A DNA stretch of 41,897 nucleotides, taken from Magnetococcales bacterium DCbin2. Lineage in GTDB: Bacteria; Pseudomonadota; Magnetococcia; Magnetococcales; UBA8363. This document shows, in pieces, positions 3,243 through 22,804 of this stretch (position 1 is its first letter; each line of letters begins with the position of its first letter). A model generated the notes under the pieces. The model was not told where the DNA came from and made no database searches. It saw only the letters and a program-made list of their open reading frames with translations. The stretch is from NCBI GenBank assembly GCA_002753615.1, contig PEAO01000013.1, positions 1 to 41,897 of the forward strand, given 5' to 3'. The position numbers and the translations under genes were made by a program.

Positions 3243-4601
3243 ATGAGCCAAGCCAGTGTCACCCTGCCGATCCACCAGACTTCACACCGTGGTTTGTTTG
3301 ACGGAAGCGAGGGCTATGGTGGCGATGACGAACCTTCGGGCGACCAGGAAGATAAACCTCCTGAAAGTCGCTATTCCCCCCTGCCCCACTCGTCCAAACA
3401 TCTCTCTGGATTTTGCCACGCCCTGCCTGGCCTCTCCCCAACGTTCCCCGAAAATGAACGTAGTCAACAGTTTCGTAGCCGCCATTATCCCGATGTCACG
3501 GCGCAACAATGGAATGATTGGCGTTGGCAACTGAAAAACCGTATTCATCGGTTAGAAGATCTGCAAAGACTGTTTTATCTGACGCCCGAAGAGTTAAACG
3601 CTTTTCGCCGTGGTGAACCCAAACTTCCCATGGCCTTGACCCCCTATTATGCGTCATTGATGGACCCGGAAAATGGTGCCGATCCCCTGCGGCGGACACA
3701 TATCCCCGTGGGCGGCGAGCGCGTCGTGTCACAGCAGGAGCTGATCGATCCCCTGGGAGAGGAAGATCGAACGGTCGTCCCCGGCCTCGTTCATCGCTAT
3801 CCCGACCGGGTGTTGCTCATGGCAACCAAACAGTGTGCCACCTATTGCCGGTATTGCACCCGCTCACGCATGGTAGGCACCCAACCCCAGGAAAAAATAC
3901 AAGGCTTTCGGCAACATTGGCGGCAAGCGGTCGATCATATCGCTGGCGATGATCGGATACGCGATGTCGTCATCTCCGGTGGCGACCCCCTGACCCTGGG
4001 CGATGAAGAACTCGGCGTGTTGTTGCAACGTTTGGCGGAAATTCCCCATGTGGAAATTCTCCGTATCGGAACCAAAGTTCCCATGGTCCTACCCATGCGG
4101 ATCACCCCCGCGTTGGCGGCCCTGCTCAGCCGGTTTAAATCATTGTGGATCAATATCCACTGCACCCATCCCGACGAACTGACCCCCGAAGCATCGGTCG
4201 CGCTGGGTCGTCTGGCCGATGCCGGCTTGCCGTTGGGGGCGCAAACCGTATTGCTGGCGGGAATCAATGATGATGCCCAAACCCTCAAACGGCTCTATCA
4301 CGGTCTGCTGCGCCATCGGGTCCGCCCCTATTATCTCTACCAGTGTGACCCCATCCCTGGATCGTCCCATTTTCGTACCCCGGTGACCAAAGGGTTGGAA
4401 ATTATTAAACAACTGCGTGGATTCACTTCCGGTTTGGCAATACCCAGCTTTGTTATCGATGCCCCAGACAATGGCGGCAAGATTCCCCTGTTGCCCGGTA
4501 TGCCCCTCAACCGAGAAGAGGGTGATCTGTTGTTGACCAACTACCAAGGTCGGACTTGCCGTTATCCCGACGGGGTGGCTGGCGATTCTCCATCCACTTG
4601 A
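3243..4601 (+). CDS. kamA: Lysine 2,3-aminomutase (KamA-type radical SAM/PLP enzyme)
   Basis: 452 residues; ATG preceded by AAGGA 8 nt upstream. The radical SAM cluster motif is C198-x3-C202-x2-C205 (CATYCRYCTRSRM), with Arg207 matching the substrate-carboxylate arginine of lysine 2,3-aminomutase. The PLP lysine is K413 in GGKIP. The two aspartates that hold the lysine epsilon-amino group in the clostridial enzyme (Asp293, Asp330) correspond to D369 (YQCDP) and D406 (VIDAP). Their 37-residue spacing and the 7-residue step to the PLP lysine are preserved. Glutamate 2,3-aminomutase has Lys and Asn at these positions, so lysine is the expected substrate and beta-lysine the product. The protein has a long N-terminal arm but ends soon after the barrel, lacking the Cys-containing C-terminal segment of the clostridial enzyme. 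EpmB is shorter, and no epmA or efp gene lies nearby. Two ATP-grasp genes follow at once. Confidence 0.88.
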   Translation: MSQASVTLPIHQTSHRGLFDGSEGYGGDDEPSGDQEDKPPESRYSPLPHSSKHLSGFCHALPGLSPTFPENERSQQFRSRHYPDVTAQQWNDWRWQLKNRIHRLEDLQRLFYLTPEELNAFRRGEPKLPMALTPYYASLMDPENGADPLRRTHIPVGGERVVSQQELIDPLGEEDRTVVPGLVHRYPDRVLLMATKQCATYCRYCTRSRMVGTQPQEKIQGFRQHWRQAVDHIAGDDRIRDVVISGGDPLTLGDEELGVLLQRLAEIPHVEILRIGTKVPMVLPMRITPALAALLSRFKSLWINIHCTHPDELTPEASVALGRLADAGLPLGAQTVLLAGINDDAQTLKRLYHGLLRHRVRPYYLYQCDPIPGSSHFRTPVTKGLEIIKQLRGFTSGLAIPSFVIDAPDNGGKIPLLPGMPLNREEGDLLLTNYQGRTCRYPDGVAGDSPST

Positions 4602-4621
4602 AGTCCATGGAGAAAGCCCCT

Positions 4622-5593
4622 ATGCGTGTTGGCTTTGTTTACGATCTGCGCGACGACTACCTGCGTGAAGGTTATAGCGCGGAAGATGTGGTTGAATTCG
4701 ATACCGGTGCCACCTTGGATCATATCGACGGTGCCCTGACCCGGTTGGGACATTCGGTGGAACGGATCGGCAGGGGGCAACAGTTGGCCCGCCGGTTGGT
4801 CGAAGGGACGCGCTGGGATCTGGTTTTATCCATCGCGGAGGGGCTACATGGACGGAGCCGAGAAGCCCAGGTTCCGGCGTTGTTGGAAATGTTTGGGCAA
4901 CCCTATTTATTTTCCGATCCGCTAACCATGGCCTTGACGTTGGATAAGGCCATGGCTAAGCGGGTCATCCACACCGCCGGGATTCCGACGGCACCCTGGT
5001 GTGTGGTCAACTCCCTGGATGACATTGCCCAAATCAATCTCCCCTTTCCCTTGTTTGTCAAACCGTTGTGGGAAGGGACGGGAAAGGGGTGTGATCTGCA
5101 ATCCCTGGTACGGGACAAAAAAGAGTTGCCCGGGATCGTTGCCGCCAAACTGGAACGGTTTCGCCAACCCGTGTTGGTAGAAACGTTCTTATCGGGACGG
5201 GAGTTCACCGTCGCCTTGATCGGTAATACCCCCGATATTCGTCCGTTGGGAATCATGGAAATCTTCCTCAACGACCAAGCCGACGCCGAAATCTACACCA
5301 TGACCAACAAGGAACTCAGTGAAGCGCGGGTCACGTATCAATTGGCGAAAGATTCGGTCGGGGATCGGATCGTGCAACTGGGACGTGAAGCGTTTATGGC
5401 GTTGGGATGCCGCGATGTCGCCCGCATCGATTTTCGCTGTGATGCGGCAGGTCATCCCTATTTCCTGGAAGCCAACCCGCTACCGGGATTGCATCAAACC
5501 CATTCCGATCTTCCCATCATCGCCGGTCTTGTCGGGGTCGCTTATGACGACATGCTGGGGATGATCCTGGAAGCGGGCCGGAAACGGTTGTGA
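4622..5593 (+). CDS. ATP-grasp ligase, D-alanine-D-alanine ligase family (first copy)
   Basis: 323 residues from the ATG at 4622, chosen because GGAG lies 9 nt upstream and the product then begins MRVGFVYDLR, a typical first beta strand; an in-frame ATG at 4607 is possible. The gene starts 20 nt after the aminomutase stop. An N-terminal Rossmann-like half contains AEGLHGRSREAQVP. It is followed by the ATP-grasp fold, with the ATP lysine K147 (FVKPLWEGTGKG) and the metal ligands D270 (ARIDF), E283 and N285 (FLEANPLPG). Family members join a carboxylate to an amine through an acyl phosphate. The family resemblance is clear. True D-Ala-D-Ala ligase activity is doubtful, given the context beside an aminomutase and a second, divergent copy, so the substrate is unknown. 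Confidence 0.85.
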   Translation: MRVGFVYDLRDDYLREGYSAEDVVEFDTGATLDHIDGALTRLGHSVERIGRGQQLARRLVEGTRWDLVLSIAEGLHGRSREAQVPALLEMFGQPYLFSDPLTMALTLDKAMAKRVIHTAGIPTAPWCVVNSLDDIAQINLPFPLFVKPLWEGTGKGCDLQSLVRDKKELPGIVAAKLERFRQPVLVETFLSGREFTVALIGNTPDIRPLGIMEIFLNDQADAEIYTMTNKELSEARVTYQLAKDSVGDRIVQLGREAFMALGCRDVARIDFRCDAAGHPYFLEANPLPGLHQTHSDLPIIAGLVGVAYDDMLGMILEAGRKRL

Positions 5594-6606
5594 CCGCCGC
5601 ATCAGTAGACAACACCCCCTCCTTGAACCAGGGTGACGTTGTTGCGGTGGTGCATGGTGCCTGGGGTGACTCACTGGATGAGGAAGATACCCGTATTCAG
5701 GCATCGGAGGTCGCCGAAAGCCTGACGCGCCTGGGAATGACCGCTCCTATTGTCGCTTTGGGGCCGGACCTGGAACAACTATCCGCTATCTCCCAGCACA
5801 ACCCCAAAGTTATTTTTAATCTGGTAGAAGGGTTGGGTGGTTTGGGTCGGCGTGCCCATGAGGCGGCGATACGTTTGGCCCAGATGGGTATCCCCATAAC
5901 CGGGGTGTCGGGTGGACTCCAGGAGGTGGTCAACTCCAAGGTCTCTTGCAAACTGGCGTTGCAGGCAGCCGGTTTTCCCACCCCGCCATGGACGACGACT
6001 GGCACGGATGTTTCCGGGGATGATCTGTGGATCGTCAAGCCCGTGTGGGAACATGGATCGCTGGATATGGATGAGAGTTCGGTCGTCAAAGGGTCGGAAG
6101 TCGCCGCCGCCTTGGCGAAACGCCGTGTTATTTCACCCCACGACCATTTTGCCGAACGGTATGTGGCGGGTCGGGAATTCAACTGCTCGGTTGTAGCGGG
6201 TCCAACGGGGGGGCAGGTGTTTGGGGCGGTAGAAATGTTGTTTGTGGACTACCCCGATCAGGGGGTGCGCATCATCGATTATGCCGCCAAGTGGGATGCC
6301 GCCAGTTTTGGATACCACCATACGCCACGTCGGTTTGAGTTTTCGCCATGCGATGAGCCGCTATTAAAACGGTTGCAGACCATCGCTTTGGACGTGTGGC
6401 AGATGTTTGCGTTGGAGGGGTATGTTCGGGTTGATTTTCGCGTCGATGCCGAAAATCAGCCGTGGATCCTGGAAGTCAATGCCAACCCATGTTTATCTCA
6501 TGATGCCGGCTTTGTGGTCACGGTTTTGCGGTCGGGGATCAACTACGATGCCTTGATCTGGCGTTTGGTTCAGGCCGCACTGGGTTGGACAGCTTTGGGA
6601 TCTTAG
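5590..6606 (+). CDS. ATP-grasp ligase, D-alanine-D-alanine ligase-like (second copy)
   Basis: 338 residues from GTG at 5590, which overlaps the preceding stop in GTGA and implies translational coupling. The ATP-grasp landmarks are K150 (WIVKPVWEHGS), D282 (VRVDFRVD), E295 and N297/N299 (ILEVNANPCLS). The N-terminal half has FNLVEGLGGLGRRAHEA, parallel to the AEG..GR.REA segment of the first copy. The two proteins are therefore paralogues, but have diverged well beyond a recent duplication. They could act in sequence, each adding one residue or one acyl group, or form a heteromer. The substrate is unknown; beta-lysine is the obvious candidate because of the upstream aminomutase. Only 10 nt separate its stop from the hsdR start. 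Confidence 0.83.
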   Translation: MTAASVDNTPSLNQGDVVAVVHGAWGDSLDEEDTRIQASEVAESLTRLGMTAPIVALGPDLEQLSAISQHNPKVIFNLVEGLGGLGRRAHEAAIRLAQMGIPITGVSGGLQEVVNSKVSCKLALQAAGFPTPPWTTTGTDVSGDDLWIVKPVWEHGSLDMDESSVVKGSEVAAALAKRRVISPHDHFAERYVAGREFNCSVVAGPTGGQVFGAVEMLFVDYPDQGVRIIDYAAKWDAASFGYHHTPRRFEFSPCDEPLLKRLQTIALDVWQMFALEGYVRVDFRVDAENQPWILEVNANPCLSHDAGFVVTVLRSGINYDALIWRLVQAALGWTALGS

Positions 6607-6616
6607 GGCTGGAGTG

Positions 6617-9595
6617 ATGACGACATCAGAACACCAAATCGAACAAGACCTCATCGACAAGCTGGGCGAGCTTAAATACATCGCACGCCCCGACATCCGC
6701 GACCGTGCCGGACTGGAGGCCAACTTTCGCGTCAAGTTCGAGGCCCTCAACCGGGTCAAGCTCACCGAAAAAGAATTCGCACGCCTCCTGGGCGGCATCA
6801 CCGTGTCCGACGTTTTCAATGCCGCGCAAATACTGCGCAGCATCAACGCTTTTGAACGCGACGATGGTACCCCACTCAACTACACACTCGTCAACCTTAA
6901 AGATTGGTGCAAAAACACATTCGAGGTAGTCAACCAGCTTCGCATCAACAACCACAGCAGCCACCACCGCTACGACGTGGTACTACTCATCAATGGCGTG
7001 CCGGTGGTGCAGATTGAGATGAAAACCCTTTCTGTCAGCCCGCGCCGCGCCATACAACAGATCGTCGATTACAAAAACGACCCCGGCAACGGTTATGGCA
7101 ACACGCTCTTGTGCTTTATCCAAATTTTCATCGTCAGCAACCGCACCGATACCTGGTACTTCGCCAATAATAACACGCGGCACTTCAGCTTCAACGCCGA
7201 CGAACGCTTTTTGCCCGTTTACCAGTTCGCAGACGCAGACAACAAGAAGATCACCCATCTCGATGCCTTTGCCGAAAAGTTTCTCACCAAATGCACCCTG
7301 GGTGAGATGGTCAGTCGCTACACGGTATTGGTGGCCAGCGAGCAGAAATTGGTGATCATGCGTCCGTACCAAATCTATGCCGTCCAGGCCATCGTGGACT
7401 GCATCCACCAAAACTACGGCAACGGCTACATCTGGCACACCACCGGCAGCGGCAAGACACTCACCTCGTTCAAAGCCTCCACGTTGCTCAAAGATAACCG
7501 GGACATCGACAAATGCCTGTTCGTGGTGGACCGTAAAGACCTCGACCGCCAAACCCGCGAGGAATTCAACCGCTTTCAGGAAGGCTGCGTCGAAGAGAAC
7601 ACCAACACCGAGACCCTGGTGCGTCGGCTGCTCTCAGATGACTATGCCGATAAGGTTATTGTCACCACCATCCAGAAGCTAGGTCTGGCACTCGATGGTA
7701 CAAACAAGCGCAACTACGTTGTGCGCCTGAAGCCGCTCCGCGACCAGCGCATGGTCTTCATTTTCGATGAATGCCACCGCTCCCAATTTGGCGAGAACCA
7801 CACGGCGATCAAAGAATTTTTCCCTAACGCCCAACTCTTCGGTTTTACCGGCACCCCTATTTTCGAGCAGAACGCCAGCTACCGGCAAATTACAGGCGAG
7901 GTGGCCAGCCGCCGCACCACCGACGACCTGTTCCAACGCTGCCTGCATCAGTACACCATCACCCACGCCATCGAAGACAAAAACGTCCTACGTTTTCACA
8001 TCGACTACTACAAGCCCGAGGGCAACAACCCGCCCAAACCCAGTGAGGCACTGGCCAAAGAAAAGGTGATTGAAACCATCCTCGCCAAGCACGATGCCGC
8101 CACCAGTGATCGCAAGTTCAACGCCATGCTGGCCACCGCCAGTATCAACGATGCCATCACCTATTTTGATGCCTTCCAACGGATTCAGGCCGATAGGCAA
8201 ACCGAAGACCCTGAATTCAGGCCGTTGAACATTGCCTGCGTCTTTTCGCCGCCCGCCGAGGGTAACAAAGACGTGGCGCAAATCCAGGAAGACCTGCCGC
8301 AAGAAAAGATCGATAACGAACAAGATCCTGAGGGCAAGAAAGCCGCGCTCACCCGCATGATCGCCGACTACAACAAGTGCTACGGCACCAACCACCGCAT
8401 GGCCGATTTCGACCTGTATTACCAGGACGTGCAGAGGCGCATCAAAGACCAGCAATACCCCAATGCCGACCTGCCTCATGCGCAGAAGATTGACCTGACC
8501 CTGGTTGTGGACATGCTGCTCACCGGCTTTGATTCCAAGTACCTCAACACCCTGTACGTCGATAAAAATCTCAAGCACCACGGCTTGATTCAAGCCTTCT
8601 CGCGTACCAACCGCGTACTCAATGACAGCAAGCCCTACGGCAACATCATTGACTTCCGCCAGCAGCAAGCACCGGTGGAAGAGGCCATTACCCTGTTTTC
8701 GGGCGAGAAAACCGACAACCCGCGCAAAATTTGGCTGGTGGACGCCGCCCCCGAAGTCATCAACAAGTTCCAGACCGCCATGCAGCAACTGGAAGATTTC
8801 CTGCGCTCGCAGGGCCTGGAGGCCAAACCCGAAGAAGTGGCCAACCTTAAGGGCGACGCGGCGGACAGCCAGTTTGTCAATCTGTTCAAAGAGGTGCAAC
8901 GCCTAGCCACCCAACTCGACCAGTACACCGACCTCTCTCTGGAACAGAAAAAACAAATCGACACCATCGCCCCGCCCGATACCCTGCAAAGCTTCCGTGC
9001 CCAGTACCTGGAAACCGCCCGCCAACTCAAGAAAAAGCAGGACAAGGACGACACCATCCCCGAGGTACAGCAGCTTGATTTTGAGTTCGTACTCTTTGCC
9101 AGCACCGTCATCGACTACGACTATATCATGGGCCTCATCGCCCGTTTGACCCAGCAGAAACCCGGCAGGCGCACCATGAACCGTGAGCAGTTGATCGGCC
9201 TCATCCGGTCGGATGCTAAATTTTTGGACGAGCGCGACGACATCGCCGATTATATCCGCAGCCTGCCGGTGGGACAGGCACTGGATGAAAAGAACATCCG
9301 CGAAGGTTTTGATCACTTCAAGGCGGAGAAGAAAGCGCAAACCATCACCGATCTGGCCGCCCGCCACGGGCTGGAGGCGCAAGCCCTGCAAGGCTTTGTC
9401 GATGAGGTGCTGCGCCGACGCATCTTCGACGGCGAACGCCTTTCCGATCTCTTTGCCCCTCTGGGCTTGGGCTGGAAAGTGCGCACCCAGGCCGAACTAA
9501 AACTCATGGATGAACTTGCCCCCCTGCTGCACAAGCTGGCCCAGGAGCGGGAGATTGCGGGTTTGGCCGTCTATGAAGAGGAGCGCACAGCATGA
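6617..9595 (+). CDS. hsdR: Type I restriction enzyme, R subunit (HsdR)
   Basis: 992 residues from ATG 6617; a GTG directly before it (6614) is an alternative. The N-terminal nuclease domain has the PD-(D/E)XK residues D120, E134 and K136 (DVV...VQIEMK). The superfamily 2 translocase follows, with Walker A HTTGSGKTLTS (about 273-283), DECH box FDECHRSQFG (about 383-392) and FGFTGTPIF. A helical C-terminal domain for subunit contact closes the protein. It cuts unmodified DNA after ATP-driven translocation, in complex with HsdM and HsdS. It is the first gene of a five-gene run in which every stop overlaps the next start. Leucine is mostly CTC/CTG here, whereas the upstream genes use many TTG codons, in line with horizontal acquisition. 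Confidence 0.96.
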   Translation: MTTSEHQIEQDLIDKLGELKYIARPDIRDRAGLEANFRVKFEALNRVKLTEKEFARLLGGITVSDVFNAAQILRSINAFERDDGTPLNYTLVNLKDWCKNTFEVVNQLRINNHSSHHRYDVVLLINGVPVVQIEMKTLSVSPRRAIQQIVDYKNDPGNGYGNTLLCFIQIFIVSNRTDTWYFANNNTRHFSFNADERFLPVYQFADADNKKITHLDAFAEKFLTKCTLGEMVSRYTVLVASEQKLVIMRPYQIYAVQAIVDCIHQNYGNGYIWHTTGSGKTLTSFKASTLLKDNRDIDKCLFVVDRKDLDRQTREEFNRFQEGCVEENTNTETLVRRLLSDDYADKVIVTTIQKLGLALDGTNKRNYVVRLKPLRDQRMVFIFDECHRSQFGENHTAIKEFFPNAQLFGFTGTPIFEQNASYRQITGEVASRRTTDDLFQRCLHQYTITHAIEDKNVLRFHIDYYKPEGNNPPKPSEALAKEKVIETILAKHDAATSDRKFNAMLATASINDAITYFDAFQRIQADRQTEDPEFRPLNIACVFSPPAEGNKDVAQIQEDLPQEKIDNEQDPEGKKAALTRMIADYNKCYGTNHRMADFDLYYQDVQRRIKDQQYPNADLPHAQKIDLTLVVDMLLTGFDSKYLNTLYVDKNLKHHGLIQAFSRTNRVLNDSKPYGNIIDFRQQQAPVEEAITLFSGEKTDNPRKIWLVDAAPEVINKFQTAMQQLEDFLRSQGLEAKPEEVANLKGDAADSQFVNLFKEVQRLATQLDQYTDLSLEQKKQIDTIAPPDTLQSFRAQYLETARQLKKKQDKDDTIPEVQQLDFEFVLFASTVIDYDYIMGLIARLTQQKPGRRTMNREQLIGLIRSDAKFLDERDDIADYIRSLPVGQALDEKNIREGFDHFKAEKKAQTITDLAARHGLEAQALQGFVDEVLRRRIFDGERLSDLFAPLGLGWKVRTQAELKLMDELAPLLHKLAQEREIAGLAVYEEERTA

Positions 9596-10848
9596 GTGGG
9601 AATGGGAAGAGTACCCTAGTGCCACAGCTGCGGTTTGGGGAGTTTCGGGAGGCGGGGGAGTGGGAAAACAAACCACTAGGAGAATTGGGCGATGTGTTGA
9701 TGTGCAAAAGAATTTTTGCGGATGAGACTAACGATACTGCGGGTGTGCCGTTTTTCAAGATTGGCACACTTGGCGGCAAACCTGATGCCTTTATCAGCAG
9801 AAATCTGTTTGAAAGCTATAAAGATAAGTACAAATATCCTCGGAAGGGCGAGATATTAATTACATGCAGCGGGACGGTTGGCAAGTGCCTACCCTATGAC
9901 GGGGAAGATGCGTATTACCAAGACTCGAATATAGTTTGGATTGACAATTCAAAACTTAAGATTAGCAATGAATTTCTTTACACTGTTCTGCTGAATGTAA
10001 ACTGGGGAAGGCTAAACTCTACAACAATCACTCGAATATACGGCTCAGATTTGCGGGGGATAATAGTCTCATTTCCAATACAAAGTGAAGAACAACAAAA
10101 AATCGCCGACTGCCTGTCATCGCTGGACGAACGGATCACGGCGGAGGCGAACAAGATCGACACCCTCAAGGCCCACAAGAAGGGCCTGATGCAGCAGCTA
10201 TTCCCGGCTGAGGGCGAAACCGTGCCACGGCTGCGGTTTGGAGAGTTTCGGGAGGGGGGGGAGTGGGAGGAGAAAACACTGGGAGGCGTGACTGAGTTTG
10301 CATCTGGCGGCACGCCTTCAAAAGACGTACCCGAGTATTGGGGCGGCACTATTCCTTGGATCAGCGCGTCTTCAATGTACGAGACGACGCTATGCAAGTC
10401 AGTTTTAAACATTACTGATCTTGCGATCAAGGAGGGTGCAAGAATTGCAAAAAAAGGAACAATCCTGATCCTCGTCAGGGGAAGTATGCTCTATAACAGA
10501 GTCCCTATGGGGATCGCGTCCATTGATGTTTCATTCAACCAGGACGTTAAAGCACTAACCATCAAGCAGGAAATTCACGCATATTTTCTTTTATATCAAC
10601 TGCTATCCTACGAGTCACGTATTTCTATTGACAAAACAGGAATTGGTGCTGGAAAGATTGAGACGGATGAATTGAAGGATCTTGGAATTTATATTCCCTC
10701 TCCATCAGAACAACAAAAAATCGCCGACTGCCTCTCCTCCCTCGACGAACTCATCACCGCCCAGGCGCAAAAGCTTGAGATCTTGAAGCGTCACAAAAAG
10801 GGTTTGATGCAGCAGCTTTTTCCCACGCAGGACGAGGAATCGGCATGA
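9592..10848 (+). CDS. hsdS: Type I restriction-modification specificity subunit (HsdS)
   Basis: 418 residues; its ATG overlaps the hsdR stop (ATGA). The protein has two halves, each made of a target recognition domain (about residues 20-160 and 225-365) and a conserved helical spacer. The spacers read EQQKIADCLSSLDE...HKKGLMQQLFP in both halves. The entry to each half is also repeated (PQLRFGEFREAGEWE and PRLRFGEFREGGEWE). The two recognition domains differ, so the DNA target should be bipartite and asymmetric. It directs both methylation and cleavage by the HsdM/HsdR complex. The repeated DNA segments are listed separately. Confidence 0.95.
   Translation: MSGNGKSTLVPQLRFGEFREAGEWENKPLGELGDVLMCKRIFADETNDTAGVPFFKIGTLGGKPDAFISRNLFESYKDKYKYPRKGEILITCSGTVGKCLPYDGEDAYYQDSNIVWIDNSKLKISNEFLYTVLLNVNWGRLNSTTITRIYGSDLRGIIVSFPIQSEEQQKIADCLSSLDERITAEANKIDTLKAHKKGLMQQLFPAEGETVPRLRFGEFREGGEWEEKTLGGVTEFASGGTPSKDVPEYWGGTIPWISASSMYETTLCKSVLNITDLAIKEGARIAKKGTILILVRGSMLYNRVPMGIASIDVSFNQDVKALTIKQEIHAYFLLYQLLSYESRISIDKTGIGAGKIETDELKDLGIYIPSPSEQQKIADCLSSLDELITAQAQKLEILKRHKKGLMQQLFPTQDEESA
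9619..9665 (+). repeat. Direct repeat 1a in hsdS (47 bp)
   Basis: This segment and 10222-10268 match at 44 of 47 positions by direct reading. They encode the entry to each recognition domain. Such repeats allow recombination between hsdS halves. Confidence 0.85.
10089..10115 (+). repeat. Direct repeat 2a in hsdS (27 bp, exact)
   Basis: Identical over 27 bp to 10707-10733. Both copies encode the start of the helical spacer (EQQKIADCL). The copies lie 618 bp apart. Confidence 0.88.
10222..10268 (+). repeat. Direct repeat 1b in hsdS (47 bp)
   Basis: Second copy of the segment at 9619-9665, with three mismatches. It marks the start of the second half of HsdS. Confidence 0.85.
10707..10733 (+). 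repeat. Direct repeat 2b in hsdS (27 bp, exact)
   Basis: Second exact copy of the segment at 10089-10115, in the C-terminal helical spacer of HsdS. Confidence 0.88.
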
Positions 10849-11861
10849 CGCAACTCATCCTCTATACCAGCGAAGACGGCCAAAGCCGCATTCAATTGTA
10901 TGCCAACAGGGATACTGTTTGGCTGACGCAGCGTGAGATGGCGGAGCTTTTCAACGTCAGCACGGACAACATCGGGCTGCATCTCAAACACATTTATACT
11001 GATGGTGAACTGGTTTGGCAAGCAACTACCGAGGAATCCTCGGTAGTTCAAACCGAGGGTGCCCGCGACGTGCGCCGCTCGGTCACACTCTACAATCTCG
11101 ATGCCATTCTGGCCGTGGGCTACCGCGTGCGCTCACCGCGTGGGGTGCAGTTTCGCCGCTGGGCCAGCACGGTACTGGCGGAATACCTGCGCAAGGGTTT
11201 CGCCATGGACGACGAGCGGCTCAAGAACCCCGATGGCCGCCCCGATTATTTCGACGAGATGCTGGCGCGCATCCGCGACATTCGCGCCTCGGAAAAGCGG
11301 TTTTATCACAAAGTGCGCGACCTGTTTGCCCTGGCAACCGATTACGATAAGTCCGACCAAGCCGCCCAGCAATTCTTTGCCACCGTGCAAAACCTGCTGC
11401 TGTATGCCGTCACGCAACAAACCGCTGCCGAGATCATCCTGACTCGCGCCAACCCTGCGGATGCACACTTTGGCTTGCTCAGTTGGAAAGGTAAGCAGGT
11501 ACACAAGCAAGATATTCTGATTGCCAAGAATTATTTGACCGAAGATGAAATCGACACCCTCAACCGGCTGGTGGTCATCTTTCTGGAAACCGCCGAATTG
11601 CGTGCCAAACGGCAAACCATCACCAGCATGGCCTTCTGGCGCGAGAACGTTGGGCAAATCATCACAGCCAACGGTTTCCCCTTGCTGGCAGGTGCGGGAT
11701 CGGTCAGCCATGCCCGCATGGAGCAGCAGATTGCCCCAATGTTTTTGCACTACGACCAGCACAGCAAAACCCAAGAGGCACAAGCGGCGGACGCGCAGGA
11801 CGAAGCCGAGCTAAAAGCACTGGAAAACAAGATCAAACATCGCAAAGGGACAACATCATGA
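10845..11861 (+). CDS. RhuM-family protein in the restriction operon
   Basis: 338 residues; ATG overlaps the hsdS stop. It belongs to the virulence protein RhuM family, named for a Salmonella pathogenicity-island gene and often found inside type I restriction loci; its biochemical role is not established. The N-terminal third carries a helix-turn-helix-like segment (LTQREMAELFNVSTDNIGLH, residues 28-47), then the family block RRSVTLYNLDAILAVGYRV and FRRWASTVLAEYL. The C-terminal half is helical and contains HFGLLSW, ending in a charged tail (about 305-338) that may form a coiled coil. Its fixed place between hsdS and the ATPase gene suggests a regulatory or accessory defence role. Family assignment is confident, function is not. 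Confidence 0.85.
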   Translation: MTQLILYTSEDGQSRIQLYANRDTVWLTQREMAELFNVSTDNIGLHLKHIYTDGELVWQATTEESSVVQTEGARDVRRSVTLYNLDAILAVGYRVRSPRGVQFRRWASTVLAEYLRKGFAMDDERLKNPDGRPDYFDEMLARIRDIRASEKRFYHKVRDLFALATDYDKSDQAAQQFFATVQNLLLYAVTQQTAAEIILTRANPADAHFGLLSWKGKQVHKQDILIAKNYLTEDEIDTLNRLVVIFLETAELRAKRQTITSMAFWRENVGQIITANGFPLLAGAGSVSHARMEQQIAPMFLHYDQHSKTQEAQAADAQDEAELKALENKIKHRKGTTS

Positions 11862-13039
11862 AAACATCCCAAACCTTTGCTGATCTACCAACCTTGGCCG
11901 GTCATCTGCGCGGCAAGTTGGAAAGCAAAAAATACATCCTGCTCTACGCCTACAACGGCATAGGCAAAACGCGGCTGTCCATGGCCTTCAAGGACATTGG
12001 TAAGCGTGTCGTAACAAGCCCACTAACGACAGAATCCGGCGACGCTTTGGTGACAGAAAACGGAGATGCAATCGTAGGTGACGTTGTTCAGAGGGACACG
12101 CTCTACTTCAACGCCTTCACCGAAGATCTGTTTCATTGGGAAAACGACATGGAGGGCGATAGCGACCGTTGGCTCACGTTCAACGCCCGCTCGCGCTTTT
12201 TTTCTGGTCTGGATGAGTTTGAAATGGACAACCGCATCCGCCCGCTGTTACACCGCTATGCGGATTTCGACTTCCGCATCGACACGCAAAAACAGGCGGT
12301 ACACTTCTCGCGCACGATAAATGGGCGGATCCTCGACAATATCAAAGTCTCGCGTGGCGAGGAAAACCTATTCATCTGGTGCTTTTTCCTCGCTATTGTC
12401 CAGTTGGCAATGGACCCCGATATCGAGGCTTACCGCTGGGTAAAATACCTCTACATCGACGACCCCATCTCGTCGCTGGACGAGCACAACGCCATTAGTG
12501 TGGCGACCCATCTCGCGCAACTGCTCAAGCAAGACAACAAACTCAAGACCGTTATCTCAACGCACCACACGCTATTCTACAATGTGCTGAGCAACGAGAT
12601 GAAGAAGGAAAAAATACTCAAGTACTTCGTCAGCAGACCAGCAAGCAGCAGCAACTACACCCTGCAAGTGCAACAGAGCGACACGCCGGTCTTCTACCAC
12701 GTTGCCGCCTTGACCGAACTGTGTCAGGCCGAGAAAAAAGACTGTTTGTTTACTCACCACTTCAATATGCTGCGCACTATTCTGGAGAAGACGGCAAGTT
12801 TTCACGGCCATAAGCACTTTTCGGTCTGCATCGAGCAGCAGGATGACAACTCTGACGGCATCCTGCACGCCCGCCTGCTCAATATCCTGAGTCATGGCAA
12901 TTATTCGCTCTTCGAACCCTATCAAATGCTGGAGGAAAACAAAAAGCATTTTCGAAATATCCTGGATGTCTTCTTGAAAAACTACCCTTTCACTCTCAAT
13001 TTATTCCCTCAAGCTCCTGAGCCAGAAGATACACCATGA
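11858..13039 (+). CDS. ABC-type ATPase, candidate PrrC-like anticodon nuclease
   Basis: 393 residues; ATG overlaps the rhuM-like stop. The N-terminal ATPase has Walker A NGIGKT (33-38), an ABC signature-like SRGEEN (165-170), Walker B and D-loop YIDDPISSLDEHN (199-211) and an H-switch STHHT (about 234-238). The C-terminal part (about 285-393) lacks ATPase motifs but has R306-x3-E310 and H346 (LSHGN). Escherichia coli PrrC is 396 residues, sits in a type I restriction locus, and has a reported nuclease triad Arg320, Glu324, His356. Overall length, order and spacing (4, then 36 here against 32) agree well. PrrC is held silent by the restriction complex and cleaves a tRNA anticodon loop when a phage disables that complex. 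The PrrC-like call is inference; the ATPase call is firm. HEPN-type RNase of other target is the main alternative. Confidence 0.7.
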   Translation: MKTSQTFADLPTLAGHLRGKLESKKYILLYAYNGIGKTRLSMAFKDIGKRVVTSPLTTESGDALVTENGDAIVGDVVQRDTLYFNAFTEDLFHWENDMEGDSDRWLTFNARSRFFSGLDEFEMDNRIRPLLHRYADFDFRIDTQKQAVHFSRTINGRILDNIKVSRGEENLFIWCFFLAIVQLAMDPDIEAYRWVKYLYIDDPISSLDEHNAISVATHLAQLLKQDNKLKTVISTHHTLFYNVLSNEMKKEKILKYFVSRPASSSNYTLQVQQSDTPVFYHVAALTELCQAEKKDCLFTHHFNMLRTILEKTASFHGHKHFSVCIEQQDDNSDGILHARLLNILSHGNYSLFEPYQMLEENKKHFRNILDVFLKNYPFTLNLFPQAPEPEDTP

Positions 13040-14652
13040 CTGAATTTGAAAAACAGAAGCTGGGCAAAATCCTCTGGGCTATTGCCGACCAATTGCGCGG
13101 GGCGATGAATGCCGACGATTTTCGCGATTACATGCTGGCTTTTCTGTTCCTGCGCTATCTATCCGACAACTTTGAAGCGGCGGCACAAAGGGAACTTGGG
13201 CCTGACTATCCCACACTACCCGAAGGCGACCATCGTGCGCCACTGGCGGTGTGGTATGCGCAAAACCCGGACGATACGACGCAGTTCGAGAAGCAGATGC
13301 GTCGCAAGGTGCATTATGTGATCCGCCCGGAATACCTGTGGACGAGCCTGGCTGAGATGGCACGCACGCAAAACGGGGAGTTGTTGGACACGCTGAAAAA
13401 GGGCCTCGACTACATCGAGAACGAATCCTTCAACAGTACCTTCCACGGGCTGTTCTCAGAGATCAATTTGGCCTCGGATAAGTTGGGCAGAACCTATGCC
13501 GACCGCAATGCACAACTGTGCAAAATCATCAGCGAGATTGCCCAGGGGCTTGCCGCTTTTTCCACCGACAGCGATACCCTGGGCGATGCCTATGAATACC
13601 TGATCGGCCAGTTTGCCGCCGGTTCCGGCAAAAAGGCGGGAGAGTTTTACACGCCACAGGAGATTTCCAGCATCCTTTCGGGAATCGTTACCCTGGACGG
13701 CCAGGAACCTGCCACCGGGCAACGCAAGCAGATGGAAAGCGTACTCGATTTTGCCTGCGGATCCGGCTCCCTGTTGCTCAATGTGCGCCACCGTATGGGG
13801 CCACACGGCATCGGCGAAATCGTCGGGCAGGAGAAGAACATCACGACCTATAACCTGGCCCGCATGAACATGCTGCTGCACGGGGTGAAGGATTCGGAGT
13901 TCAACATCTTCCACGGCGACACGCTGACCAACGATTGGGACCGACTGCGCGAGACCAACCCGGCCAAAACGCCGAAATTCGACGCCGTGGTGGCCAATCC
14001 GCCGTTTAGCTACCGTTGGGAGCCTACGGACGCACTCGCTGAGGATGTACGTTTCAAAAACCATGGCCTCGCGCCAAAATCGGCAGCAGACTTTGCCTTC
14101 CTATTGCACGGGTTCCGTTTTTTAAAACAAAACGGGGTGATGGCCATCATCCTGCCGCACGGCGTGCTGTTTCGGGGTGGTGCCGAGGCACGCATCCGCA
14201 CCAAGCTGCTGAAAGACGGCCACATCGACACGGTGATCGGCCTGCCGGCCAACCTGTTCTTCTCCACCGGCATCCCGGTGTGCATCCTGGTGCTGAAGAA
14301 ATGCAAAAAGCCGGATGATGTGTTGTTCATCAATGCAAATGCAGCCGAATATTATGAGAAAGGCAAGCGGCAAAACCGTCTCTTGCCCGAACACATCGAC
14401 AAGATCATCGACACCTACCGGCACCGCAAAGAAGAAACCCGTTACTCGCGGCGCGTATCATTGGAGATCATCGAGAAAGAACATGATTTCAACCTGAATA
14501 TCTCGCGCTATGTAAGTACAACCAAGGCGGAGGAAGAGATCGATCTTGCCGCAGTACACGCAGACCTCATGGCCGCCGAGGAAAAAATCGGCGAAGCCAA
14601 ACAACGCCACAACCAGTTCCTCGCCGAATTGGGCCTGCCATTGCTGCCGTGA
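13036..14652 (+). CDS. hsdM: Type I restriction-modification methyltransferase subunit (HsdM)
   Basis: 538 residues; ATG overlaps the preceding stop. An N-terminal helical HsdM domain (KLGKILWAIADQLRGAMNA) is followed by the N6-adenine methyltransferase core. S-adenosylmethionine motif I is DFACGSGSL (238-246) and the catalytic motif is NPPF (321-324). The order with NPPF after motif I is the gamma class usual for HsdM. It modifies adenines in the target set by HsdS and is needed for restriction. It is unusual in being the last gene, after hsdR, hsdS and two accessory genes; hsdM most often comes before hsdS. It has no obvious terminator directly downstream. Confidence 0.96.
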   Translation: MTEFEKQKLGKILWAIADQLRGAMNADDFRDYMLAFLFLRYLSDNFEAAAQRELGPDYPTLPEGDHRAPLAVWYAQNPDDTTQFEKQMRRKVHYVIRPEYLWTSLAEMARTQNGELLDTLKKGLDYIENESFNSTFHGLFSEINLASDKLGRTYADRNAQLCKIISEIAQGLAAFSTDSDTLGDAYEYLIGQFAAGSGKKAGEFYTPQEISSILSGIVTLDGQEPATGQRKQMESVLDFACGSGSLLLNVRHRMGPHGIGEIVGQEKNITTYNLARMNMLLHGVKDSEFNIFHGDTLTNDWDRLRETNPAKTPKFDAVVANPPFSYRWEPTDALAEDVRFKNHGLAPKSAADFAFLLHGFRFLKQNGVMAIILPHGVLFRGGAEARIRTKLLKDGHIDTVIGLPANLFFSTGIPVCILVLKKCKKPDDVLFINANAAEYYEKGKRQNRLLPEHIDKIIDTYRHRKEETRYSRRVSLEIIEKEHDFNLNISRYVSTTKAEEEIDLAAVHADLMAAEEKIGEAKQRHNQFLAELGLPLLP

Positions 14653-14813: not shown

Positions 14814-15320
14814 ATGATTCACCAAGGTGGTGCAAATGTTTTATTCGATACGGTTGCAGTCCCGGAGGACATGGACCGGGTTCGTGATCTGGTAACCCGA
14901 AGTGGTAATTTTACCCCGGAAGAGGTAGAAATGGCGGTGGAATTGGTGGAAGCCAGGCTCACCATGGGAGATAAAAGCGGATATTTTTTCTTGTTTTCAC
15001 GAGAACCTTCCGGGCAGCTATCCGGTTATGCCTGTTACGGCCCCATCACGGCGACAGATGGACGTTTTGATTTCTACTGGTTGGTCGTCGTGCCGAAATT
15101 GCAGGGGAGCGGTCTGGGTCAACGCCTCCAAGAGGCCGCAGAAGCCGCCATGAAACACGCAGGGGCCAAACGGATCTACCTGGAAACCTCATCGACCCCC
15201 GGATATTTGCGCGCCCGGGGGTTCTATGCCAAAACAGGTTATCACATTCAGTGTATTCTCGAAGACTATTACCGCGCAGGTGATGACAACCTGATCTATA
15301 TGAAATCGTTGTCGGAGTGA
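14814..15320 (+). CDS. GNAT-family N-acetyltransferase
   Basis: 168 residues; a GGAGG motif lies about 11 nt upstream of the ATG. The acetyl-CoA site is YWLVVVPKLQGSGLGQRL (motif A, Q/R-x2-G-x-G/A), followed by ETSSTPGYLRARGFYAKTGY, the usual beta6/beta7 region. A single GNAT fold, cytoplasmic. The substrate cannot be read from sequence. The gene lies just beyond the restriction cassette and in the same direction as the aminomutase/ATP-grasp genes. Pairing of an aminomutase with a GNAT is known from AblA/AblB (N-epsilon-acetyl-beta-lysine), although AblB is larger. I infer that this gene may have belonged with the aminomutase cluster before the cassette arrived. Confidence 0.85.
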   Translation: MIHQGGANVLFDTVAVPEDMDRVRDLVTRSGNFTPEEVEMAVELVEARLTMGDKSGYFFLFSREPSGQLSGYACYGPITATDGRFDFYWLVVVPKLQGSGLGQRLQEAAEAAMKHAGAKRIYLETSSTPGYLRARGFYAKTGYHIQCILEDYYRAGDDNLIYMKSLSE

Positions 15321-21196: not shown

Positions 21197-21268
21197 AACA
21201 GATCCTCAAAAAAACAATGGCTCCGAGCGCGTCGTCATACGGCCAAATTTCGAGAGGTGGAGCATCAC

Positions 21269-22804
21269 ATGAAGGCATTGGGTGTCTATTCCGTAGAAAA
21301 TTTTTTTTCGATAGAAAAACCTCTCGATTGCGCCACAGAAGTACCCTTTGGGATTTCGATGATCCTGACTGGACTGGAGAGCGGAGGGCATGAGGTCGAT
21401 TTGCTTGTTCTGACCTCCGCCTCGCCCGTCAGAAAAATGCTTGACGATGAATTGCAACGGTTTCGTCCACAGATGCTGTGTTTAACGGCGGTCTCCACGC
21501 AATATCCGCTGATCAACGACGTTGCACGGATTGCCAAGGAGATTGATCCAACGTTATTCATCATCCTGGGGGGGCATCATGCCTCCCTGCAACCGGAAGA
21601 TGCCATCCTCAACCCCTCTCTGGATGCCATCTGCGTCGGCGAGGGTGACCGGGCTATTGTGGCGTTGGCTGATCAATTGAGCGCAGGGAAAACACCTTCG
21701 GGAATATCCGGGCTATGGATCAAGAGCAAGGGGGGTGATCGGGCGGAAAATATTGAAAAAAATCCTCAAGACCGTTTCCTGGATGATCTGGATCAACTTC
21801 CCTTTATCAATCGCAAACTGTGGTCACGGTGGATCTTTGATGAAAGCAAAATGCCCTCCGTATTGGTAGGCCGGGGATGTCCTTATCGCTGCACCTACTG
21901 TTCCAACCATGCCATGCAAAAATTGGCCAAAGGGAAATATGTCCGCTTCCGGTCTACAGATCATTTAATCGCAGAGATCGCCGCCATTGTAACCGATAAC
22001 CCCAAGGTTGAGGATATTTATCTGGAAGTCGAAACCATCGGTGTCTACCCGGAATATTGTCTGGAGTTGGGAGCAAAATTATTGGCGTTCAACAATACCC
22101 GGAAACGTCCCCTGTCGTTTGGGGCCAACATCGCCCCCACCAAACGTCTGCTTGCCAAGCCAGACCTTTTGGACGAAATTTTAGGGTTGTTTCATAAGGC
22201 GGGGGTCCGATTTTTAAATATTGGGTTGGAATCTGGATCAGAACGGATGCGCAAAGAAGTTCTCAAACGACCCGATCACAGCAATCCAGCCCTGATCGAT
22301 TTTTGCCTGCGTGCCAGATCCCACGGAATCGACATCAATCTTTTCATCCTTTTCGGTTTACCAACGGAGACCCCTGCGGAATACCTGGAAACTGTTCAGG
22401 TTGCCCGGGCTTGCAAGCCCAATCGGGTCTACCATTCCATATTCTATCCCTATCCGGGTACCGATCTTCATCACCACGCCATGGCCGACGGTTTAATAAC
22501 CAAAGATATATTGATAAACAACAAGGCTGAAAGATCCCGGCCCGTTCTCAATTCACAAACTTTTCCACGTTCACGTGTGATTTTTGAATATATTGTCTTC
22601 CCCATCCGTTGTTATCACGGGGATTGGCCTATTGGAAAAATAGCCTTTGCGACAATAAAAAATCTGATATCCATCTACCCGGGACTCTACGCCTGGGCAA
22701 GAAGATTCCTGGCCTCCTACAGCTTTACCAAGGCAATCTATACAAACTACAAAGCCAAATCATTTATCATGCGGCAAGAAATCGCCCAGGAGGTCAAAAA
22801 ATAA
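21269..22804 (+). CDS. Radical SAM protein with N-terminal B12-binding-like domain
   Basis: 511 residues from ATG 21269, with GGAG 6 nt upstream (a GTG at 21257 is less likely). The first ~140 residues form a Rossmann-like cobalamin-binding-type domain (ILGGHHASLQPEDAI), although I do not see the DxHxxG cobalamin ligand motif. The radical SAM core has C204-x3-C208-x2-C211 (GCPYRCTYCSNHAM) and continues through NIGLESGSERMRKEVLKR and LFILFGLPTET. This architecture is shared by BchE-like cyclases, methyltransferases and thioether-forming enzymes; the substrate is not predictable. A GT2 glycosyltransferase gene is convergent just downstream, so modification of a surface glycan or lipid is one possibility. 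Confidence 0.86.
   Translation: MKALGVYSVENFFSIEKPLDCATEVPFGISMILTGLESGGHEVDLLVLTSASPVRKMLDDELQRFRPQMLCLTAVSTQYPLINDVARIAKEIDPTLFIILGGHHASLQPEDAILNPSLDAICVGEGDRAIVALADQLSAGKTPSGISGLWIKSKGGDRAENIEKNPQDRFLDDLDQLPFINRKLWSRWIFDESKMPSVLVGRGCPYRCTYCSNHAMQKLAKGKYVRFRSTDHLIAEIAAIVTDNPKVEDIYLEVETIGVYPEYCLELGAKLLAFNNTRKRPLSFGANIAPTKRLLAKPDLLDEILGLFHKAGVRFLNIGLESGSERMRKEVLKRPDHSNPALIDFCLRARSHGIDINLFILFGLPTETPAEYLETVQVARACKPNRVYHSIFYPYPGTDLHHHAMADGLITKDILINNKAERSRPVLNSQTFPRSRVIFEYIVFPIRCYHGDWPIGKIAFATIKNLISIYPGLYAWARRFLASYSFTKAIYTNYKAKSFIMRQEIAQEVKK

Follow-up and report, generated by a model that had tools for sequence, protein, structure and literature searches.

A KamA-type aminomutase gene conserved beside divergent ATP-grasp ligase genes in Magnetococcales and other bacteria: a possible route to acetylated beta-lysyl peptides

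Operon genes in the window

The DNA analysed here, referred to as the window, is the whole 41,897-nucleotide stretch of contig PEAO01000013.1 of Magnetococcales bacterium DCbin2 (assembly GCA_002753615.1). It carries an operon in which a gene for a KamA-family aminomutase, of the type that uses radical S-adenosylmethionine (SAM) and pyridoxal phosphate (PLP), is followed by two genes for ATP-grasp ligases and, at a distance, by a gene for a GNAT acetyltransferase. The features concerned are:

3243..4601, + strand: KamA-family radical-SAM/PLP aminomutase (KamA), 452 aa, probable lysine 2,3-aminomutase (AblA as best NCBIfam equivalog; match to 2a5h)
4622..5593, + strand: ATP-grasp ligase 1 (ATPg1), 323 aa from ATG 4622 (D-Ala-D-Ala ligase fold; apparent core operon gene)
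5590..6606, + strand: ATP-grasp ligase 2 (ATPg2), 338 aa (best Foldseek matches D-Ala-D-Ala ligases; found at 64/80 ligase 1 loci)
14814..15320, + strand: GNAT acetyltransferase, 168 aa, fourth operon gene, displaced by the island (3' of ligase 2 in relatives)
6614..14652, + strand: type I restriction-modification island with HsdR, HsdS, RhuM, AAA_13 and HsdM, outside the pathway (Pfam, five of five proteins)

Pfam and NCBIfam models assigned the first gene to the KamA family of radical-SAM proteins and both ligases to the D-Ala-D-Ala ligase (Ddl) type of ATP-grasp enzymes. The ATG of ligase 1 lies 20 nt past the KamA stop codon and the two ligase genes overlap by 4 nt, which confirmed the coordinates, strand and spacing given in a sequence-only reading of this DNA for two Ddl-like ligases 3' of the aminomutase. 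That reading had treated the three genes as the whole unit and overlooked the fourth gene, as well as a GNAT-deacetylase encoded in other lineages. The operon is real and widely conserved; its gene content, the lysine-type residues of KamA, the Ddl-like fold of the ligases with changed site residues and the displacement of the fourth gene are established by the results below.

Lysine-type residues of the aminomutase

The window KamA aligned with the clostridial lysine 2,3-aminomutase 2a5h at E 2.9e-112, and within a gap-free stretch of the alignment D369, D406 and K413 corresponded to chain residues 293, 330 and 337. The alignment bore out the earlier statement that both lysine-type aspartates are kept with the 37-residue clostridial spacing; the equivalents of D369 and D406 presumably bind the epsilon-amine of lysine. 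In the NCBIfam ranking, AblA came first (420.8 bits), followed by glutamate aminomutase (378.9 bits), arginine aminomutase (348 bits) and EpmB (TIGR03821; 243.3 bits vs. a cut-off of 369.3).

These positions were compared among the aligned sequences of 84 KamAs encoded at ligase 1 loci, six canonical AblAs (>750 bits), 24 other KamAs (nine of them encoded near a ligase 1-type gene), 11 glutamate 2,3-aminomutases (10 above the family cut-off and one just below it) and the EpmB of the window genome. The D369/D406 columns held Asp/Asp in 84/84 KamAs from ligase 1 loci, 6/6 AblAs and 24/24 other KamAs, vs. Lys/Asn in 11/11 glutamate aminomutases and Asp/Glu in the EpmB. This difference (Asp/Asp vs. 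Lys/Asn) ruled out a glutamate aminomutase as the identity of the window KamA, and the same comparison supported the lysine type, in line with the earlier proposal that the enzyme makes beta-lysine. The radical-SAM CxxxCxxC cysteines (C198, C202 and C205) were present in all 83 KamA rows with letters at these positions, and the PLP lysine K413 in 84/84. Five KamAs encoded near a ligase 1-type gene in other genomes (L165, L166, L169, L170 and L172) exceeded the curated NCBIfam cut-off for lysine 2,3-aminomutase, and lysine is therefore favoured as the shared substrate.

A quick tree of 83 rows contained a branch with support 100 that separated 43 of the 61 ligase-linked KamAs from the other 18, which lay with AblA, and the ligase-link label needed four changes vs. 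a mean of 19.5 after shuffling. Since the ligase-linked rows are split across the tree, the operon seems to draw on more than one KamA lineage.

The two ATP-grasp ligases

The best Ddl-family matches of ligase 1 (151.6 bits) and ligase 2 (86.4 bits) both remained below the curated cut-off of 243. AlphaFold2 models of the two proteins had pLDDT (predicted local distance difference test) values of 95.5 and 93.8, respectively. For each model, all 50 Foldseek matches listed were D-Ala-D-Ala or D-Ala-D-lactate ligases, with query TM (template modelling) scores for the first two matches of 0.78 and 0.80 for ligase 1 and 0.72 and 0.74 for ligase 2.

The active sites were compared by profile alignment to nine Ddls, from the window genome and others. 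Both ligases share with Ddl the fold, the ATP-grasp domain and the core, including the conserved active-site Arg and Asn, but differ in scoring far below the family cut-offs and in two further active-site positions. The LHG His, found in 9/9 Ddls, was replaced by Glu in 94/95 ligase 1 rows and 66/68 ligase 2 rows, and the Ddl pair Lys-Tyr by Lys-Glu in 18/18 Magnetococcales ligase 1 rows and by Lys-Trp in 66/66 ligase 2 rows. A Glu in place of the LHG His would suit a cationic substrate.

A housekeeping Ddl role for the ligases was ruled out by a separate Ddl on contig C61, adjoining a MurB-like gene, and an EF-P (elongation factor P) pathway by a separate EpmB/EF-P/EpmA set on contig C54 (the EF-P-, EpmA- and MurB-like genes were named by eye from the sequence). 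With both sets encoded elsewhere in the genome, the separation of the ligases from housekeeping Ddl and from EF-P modification was upheld. The absence of EpmA and EF-P, as reported earlier, was correct within the window but not for the genome, where EpmB-, EF-P- and EpmA-like genes lie together on C54.

Distribution and modularity of the operon

Among 249 genomes from the phylum of the window genome, searching with ligase 1 gave 31 matches at 1e-25. Nineteen of these, the window genome included, were orthologues at ≥45% identity (one partial) and all belonged to its own order, Magnetococcales; the other 12 (33–36% identity) look like Ddl or a distant relative. Larger stretches were taken around 18 Magnetococcales relatives and one distant homologue (n = 19). 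Five contained KamA, ligase 1, ligase 2 and GNAT, three the first three genes, nine KamA and ligase 1 only, one ligase 1 alone and one the distant homologue. Of the three-gene stretches, that of G018 has a GNAT gene about 20 kb off, and another is cut short within ligase 2 by the end of its contig.

A scan with a ligase 1 profile, one genome per species, yielded at least 582 stretches, at least 569 of them confirmed. The 80 loci kept were the best-scoring ones, and the fractions below are accordingly not population estimates; they include five duplicate Magnetococcales genomes (L050, L051, L052, L056 and L094), which were dropped from neighbour clustering and alignment counts. KamA was found in the flanks of 71/80 loci, 67 times no more than 1 kb away from ligase 1. 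The flanks contained ligase 2 at 64/80 loci (at one of them just a 68-residue match), the operon GNAT at 52/80 and the GNAT-deacetylase at 19/80. The order KamA–ligase 1–ligase 2–GNAT without deacetylase occurred at 34/80 loci. Record titles of the 80 loci included Alphaproteobacteria, Deltaproteobacteria, Bacteroidetes, Planctomycetes, Acidobacteria, Nostoc, Spirochaetales and WOR-3, among others.

A separate draw covered 198 genomes from the phylum of a Desulfonema genome (G249, locus L081; itself in the draw). Ligase 1 was detected at 1e-60 in 71 of them, about a third of the genomes sampled. The KamA start lay within 6 kb of ligase 1 in 53 of these 71 genomes (within 2 kb in 47) and KamA elsewhere in the genome in 14. 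Three of the remaining four (G278, G316 and G368) had lower-scoring KamA-family matches, and G261 had no KamA match at 1e-80. Conserved adjacency of KamA with two ATP-grasp genes had been put forward as a check by the sequence-only reading; for KamA and ligase 1 it was observed in both samples (≤1 kb in 67/80, ≤6 kb in 53/71). Because KamA flanks ligase 1 in 71/80 loci and 53/71 genomes, the gene order is not due to chance.

The 13 genomes in which modularity was assessed comprised six where ligase 1 lacks an adjacent KamA, six with the KamA–ligase 1 pair, and G018 with three genes. KamA occurred somewhere in 12/13, including five of the six without a neighbouring KamA. A clear ligase 2 (303–433 bits) was present in G018, G249 and G251; in the other 10 genomes the best ligase 2 match scored 113–143 bits and, where placeable, fell on ligase 1 itself. 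Eight genomes that have KamA and ligase 1, four from Nostoc and four from a single Magnetococcales family, showed no clear ligase 2. Strong GNAT matches were obtained in two genomes (G018 and G251); those in three of the four Nostoc genomes were weaker, at about 90 bits. KamA and ligase 1 look like the core of the operon, with ligase 2 and GNAT as an extension and the GNAT-deacetylase as an option. The two ATP-dependent steps proposed earlier fit this composition, but they are separable, as eight genomes have ligase 1 without a clear ligase 2.

Variant arrangements were also seen. On contig C27 of G251 (about 8652–10157), ligase 2 and GNAT matches adjoin within one 618-aa frame, likely a ligase 2–GNAT fusion. 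At L185 (G396), two ligase 1-like genes flank KamA and, by eye, sensor/response-regulator genes over about 7 kb; the weaker ligase 1-like gene adjoins a KamA above the lysine cut-off and the stronger one lies about 5 kb off. G367, G301 and G263 have a similar arrangement by coordinates. At L186:2973-7256 (G453), genes for agmatinase and pyruvoyl-dependent arginine decarboxylase immediately precede two ligase 1-like genes and GNAT, and a link to polyamines is possible at this one locus.

The displaced GNAT gene and the accessory deacetylase

In the relatives L032, L033, L036 and L038 the GNAT match starts 43–235 nt past the ligase 2 match, with no gene in between. The window GNAT gene lies 8 kb from ligase 2, behind the type I restriction-modification island, with its reading frame intact. 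Because GNAT directly follows ligase 2 in relatives and the island lies between them here, the window operon is a broken operon, split in two by the island. In the near-identical genome G026 (L031) only RhuM is found between ligase 2 and GNAT and both flanking island parts are missing, the alignment with the window breaking at window positions 6591/10844 and 11844/14651. A single close lineage is thus polymorphic for the island.

Against solved structures, the GNAT profile matched 2r7h, a putative D-alanine N-acetyltransferase, at E 2.3e-54 (next best 1e-7). At 1e-3 the operon GNAT matched RimI-like models as well as 2r7h, and no match to the AblB model was obtained. AblB (TIGR03827) was also not found at E 0.001 in the window genome, which is 78% complete, and the ablAB osmolyte operon was rejected on this ground as the identity of the window genes.

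The GNAT-deacetylase is exemplified by L102:2215-4467, a protein of 750 aa that combines a histone-deacetylase domain (Pfam) with GNAT at the C-terminus; the N-terminal part was GNAT-like in two of the relatives scanned. Acetylpolyamine amidohydrolase (6phr, E 2.9e-71) was the nearest match to the deacetylase part of the L102 protein, with histone deacetylases ranking behind it, and 2r7h was the nearest to the last part of the protein. The closest relative of the accessory deacetylase is thus an enzyme of small acetylated amines. Excerpts of a paper on bacterial deacylases do not mention a GNAT-deacetylase fusion (PMC11532494).

Neighbouring genes and regulation

Neighbour families were clustered over 94 loci, giving 36 recurrent families (≥4 loci each), of some of which representatives were annotated. 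Overlapping antisense frames aside, no family beyond the operon genes occurred at more than 15/94 loci. Sensor kinases and sigma-54 activators were the commonest annotated neighbours, which also included an ABC transporter and two envelope proteins. A sigma-70 promoter scan found none, with 2.5 expected by chance.

Proposed pathway and product

In the reading that we favour, with about as much confidence as doubt, the product of the operon is a small, soluble molecule with beta-lysine as building block, probably a beta-lysyl di- or tripeptide that is acetylated and resembles a polyamine. KamA would very probably convert L-lysine to beta-lysine. Judged from fold and context, ligase 1 would use ATP to activate a carboxylate as acyl phosphate and form an amide containing beta-lysine, and ligase 2 would form a second amide bond. 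GNAT would then acetylate an amine of the ligase product, while the GNAT-deacetylase of some lineages could both add and remove acetyl groups and probably adjusts the capped state. A soluble amine is favoured as product because GNAT and the acetylpolyamine-type deacetylase accompany the ligases; beta-lysine as ligase substrate, the two amide bonds, the acetyl capping and the solubility of the product are all what we infer from these genes. The products offered by the sequence-only reading fared unequally: a small peptide, in acetylated form, fits the additional genes best, a peptidoglycan part gained some support, and a compatible solute is unshown. That the product serves as a reserve, in stress or as a compatible solute is a guess.

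More tentatively, acetylated beta-lysyl peptides may form a common but so far undescribed class of bacterial metabolites that many phyla make with a modular operon, with their charge tuned by acetylation and deacetylation as in polyamines. If so, many environmental bacteria would make a peptide-like beta-amino-acid metabolite for which no report was found, and a single pathway would combine the chemistry of aminomutases with peptide ligation by ATP-grasp enzymes and a reversible acetylation in the style of polyamines. As the enzymes look small and soluble, the pathway is directly testable. Annotation would also gain, the ligases matching Ddl models weakly and the GNAT relative 2r7h being named a putative D-alanine N-acetyltransferase.

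Several results weigh against the acetylated beta-lysyl peptide. The window KamA scored below the AblA equivalog cut-off (TIGR03820: 420.8 vs. 525.4 bits), and arginine 2,3-aminomutase was its third-best family, the residue comparison having covered the lysine, glutamate and EpmB types. The KamAs of ligase 1 loci do not form one clade separate from AblA. Ligase 1 stands without any partner gene in its flanks at 5/80 loci, and the genome behind one of these five, Phyllobacterium G252, gave no KamA match at all. No riboswitch was detected in the first 20 kb of the window or at 15 operon loci, only tRNAs. Genes of the Mur-ligase family occur near 6/94 loci, and at L109 (10057-11496) one starts directly after GNAT and scores above the Mpl cut-off (409.9 vs. 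388.7 bits). Excerpts of a paper on lichen-associated Nostoc, moreover, assign a related extra ligase to the peptide moieties of peptidoglycan (PMC5987646).

Alternative explanations

The last two of these points bear on the alternative that survives best, though we consider it unlikely, namely that the Ddl-like ligases add beta-lysine or its dipeptide to peptidoglycan precursors or recycled muropeptides. The Ddl fold of both ligases agrees with it. Besides the Mpl directly past GNAT in L109, a MurC (440.9 vs. 335.1 bits) is encoded at L080:5945-7354, on the strand opposite to KamA and about 1.2 kb away from it, with a further Ddl-like match nearby, and at L039, L041, L042 and L047, all of one Magnetococcales family, a Mur ligase lies several kb away (the one scanned was Mpl, 477.4 bits). 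These neighbours moved our odds from the soluble peptide towards the cell wall. However, six of 94 loci are few and four of the six come from the chromosomal context of a single family, the window genome has its own Ddl elsewhere, adjoining the MurB-like gene, and a soluble amine is what GNAT and the acetylpolyamine-type deacetylase suggest.

It is improbable that beta-lysine or a beta-lysyl peptide is placed on a protein, as in the beta-lysylation of EF-P, with acetylation being regulatory. In its favour, the beta-lysine placed on EF-P comes from KamA-type enzymes, and ATP-grasp ligases can act on proteins. EF-P beta-lysylation shares with the operon a KamA-family enzyme making beta-lysine, but it uses EpmA where the operon has ATP-grasp ligases, and EpmB, EF-P and EpmA-like genes are already together on C54. 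Furthermore, the ligases resemble Ddl, a small-molecule ligase, and the annotated recurrent neighbours are regulators, a transporter, envelope proteins and Mur ligases.

A slightly poorer chance is given to a variant of the AblA/AblB route that makes N-epsilon-acetyl-beta-lysine as an osmolyte, in which case the ligases would belong to a side path. KamA and GNAT are the make-up of ablAB, described in excerpts as a salt-dependent osmolyte operon (PMC1224877). This is countered by the AblB results given above for the window genome and the operon GNAT, by G434, which has a canonical AblA as well as this operon, and by the ligases being the most constant part, kept where GNAT is absent.

Least probable of all is an aminomutase acting on arginine or on an already modified lysine, giving a product without beta-lysine, since against the score below the AblA cut-off and the arginine-family match stand AblA as best equivalog, the two aspartates in 84/84 KamAs and the KamAs above the lysine cut-off at some loci.

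Comparison with known systems

N-acetylglutaminylglutamine amide (NAGGN) is made by a pathway of ATP-grasp ligation and GNAT acetylation that includes an asparagine-synthetase-like gene. The operon resembles it in combining ATP-grasp peptide ligation with GNAT acetylation, giving a small capped peptide, and differs in that a beta-amino acid would be made first and that GNAT and ligase are, for the most part, encoded separately. An asparagine-synthetase-like gene, expected by analogy in the 1.8 kb separating ligase 2 from GNAT, was rejected, as this gap encodes the GNAT-deacetylase in the examples scanned; none was noticed in ligase 2–GNAT gaps or among annotated neighbours, although no search was aimed at this family.

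A 2009 survey of ATP-grasp amidoligases is reportedly the likely origin of the name MXAN_4097-like amidoligase and may already predict the operon. This name appears in the excerpts of the 2018 lichen-Nostoc paper, together with lysine 2,3-aminomutase in the abbreviation list and an extra Ddl-like ligase beyond DdlA that is thought to modify the peptide moieties of peptidoglycan (PMC5987646). That ligase, as far as the excerpts describe it, is likely ligase 1. The extra Ddl-like ligase is common to both systems, and the KamA–ligase 1 pair is present in Nostoc loci L065, L068 and L090, while the four Nostoc genomes differ in having no clear ligase 2 and, in three, a GNAT match of about 90 bits, and the paper proposes a peptidoglycan role. 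The earlier view that no characterised pathway has this composition stood in that the literature search returned no paper on the product of this operon among the matches listed, but a related ligase operon had been mentioned in 2018, as the excerpts show (PMC5987646).

The ablAB osmolyte route, according to excerpts of two papers (PMC1224877; PMC3543383), and the operon described here have in common a lysine 2,3-aminomutase followed by a GNAT acetyltransferase; the latter differs by two ATP-grasp ligases in between, a GNAT of another family and an optional deacetylase. In a further excerpt, ablA is linked to a sodium riboswitch (PMC9337991).

Other features of the window and its relatives

At L048:8496-10748 (G102, a single-contig genome), a distant ligase 1 homologue is fused to an M20 peptidase domain and adjoins genes for gamma-glutamyltranspeptidase and N-formylglutamate amidohydrolase, constituting another ATP-grasp cluster. 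Within the window, positions 1593-2548 hold 7.6 copies of a 126-bp tandem repeat, by eye of the tetratricopeptide type on the minus strand; because no long minus-strand frame is listed there, the array may be a decayed gene. Positions 21257-22804 encode a radical-SAM protein that by eye belongs to the B12-binding type, with a glycosyltransferase-like gene beside it on the other strand.

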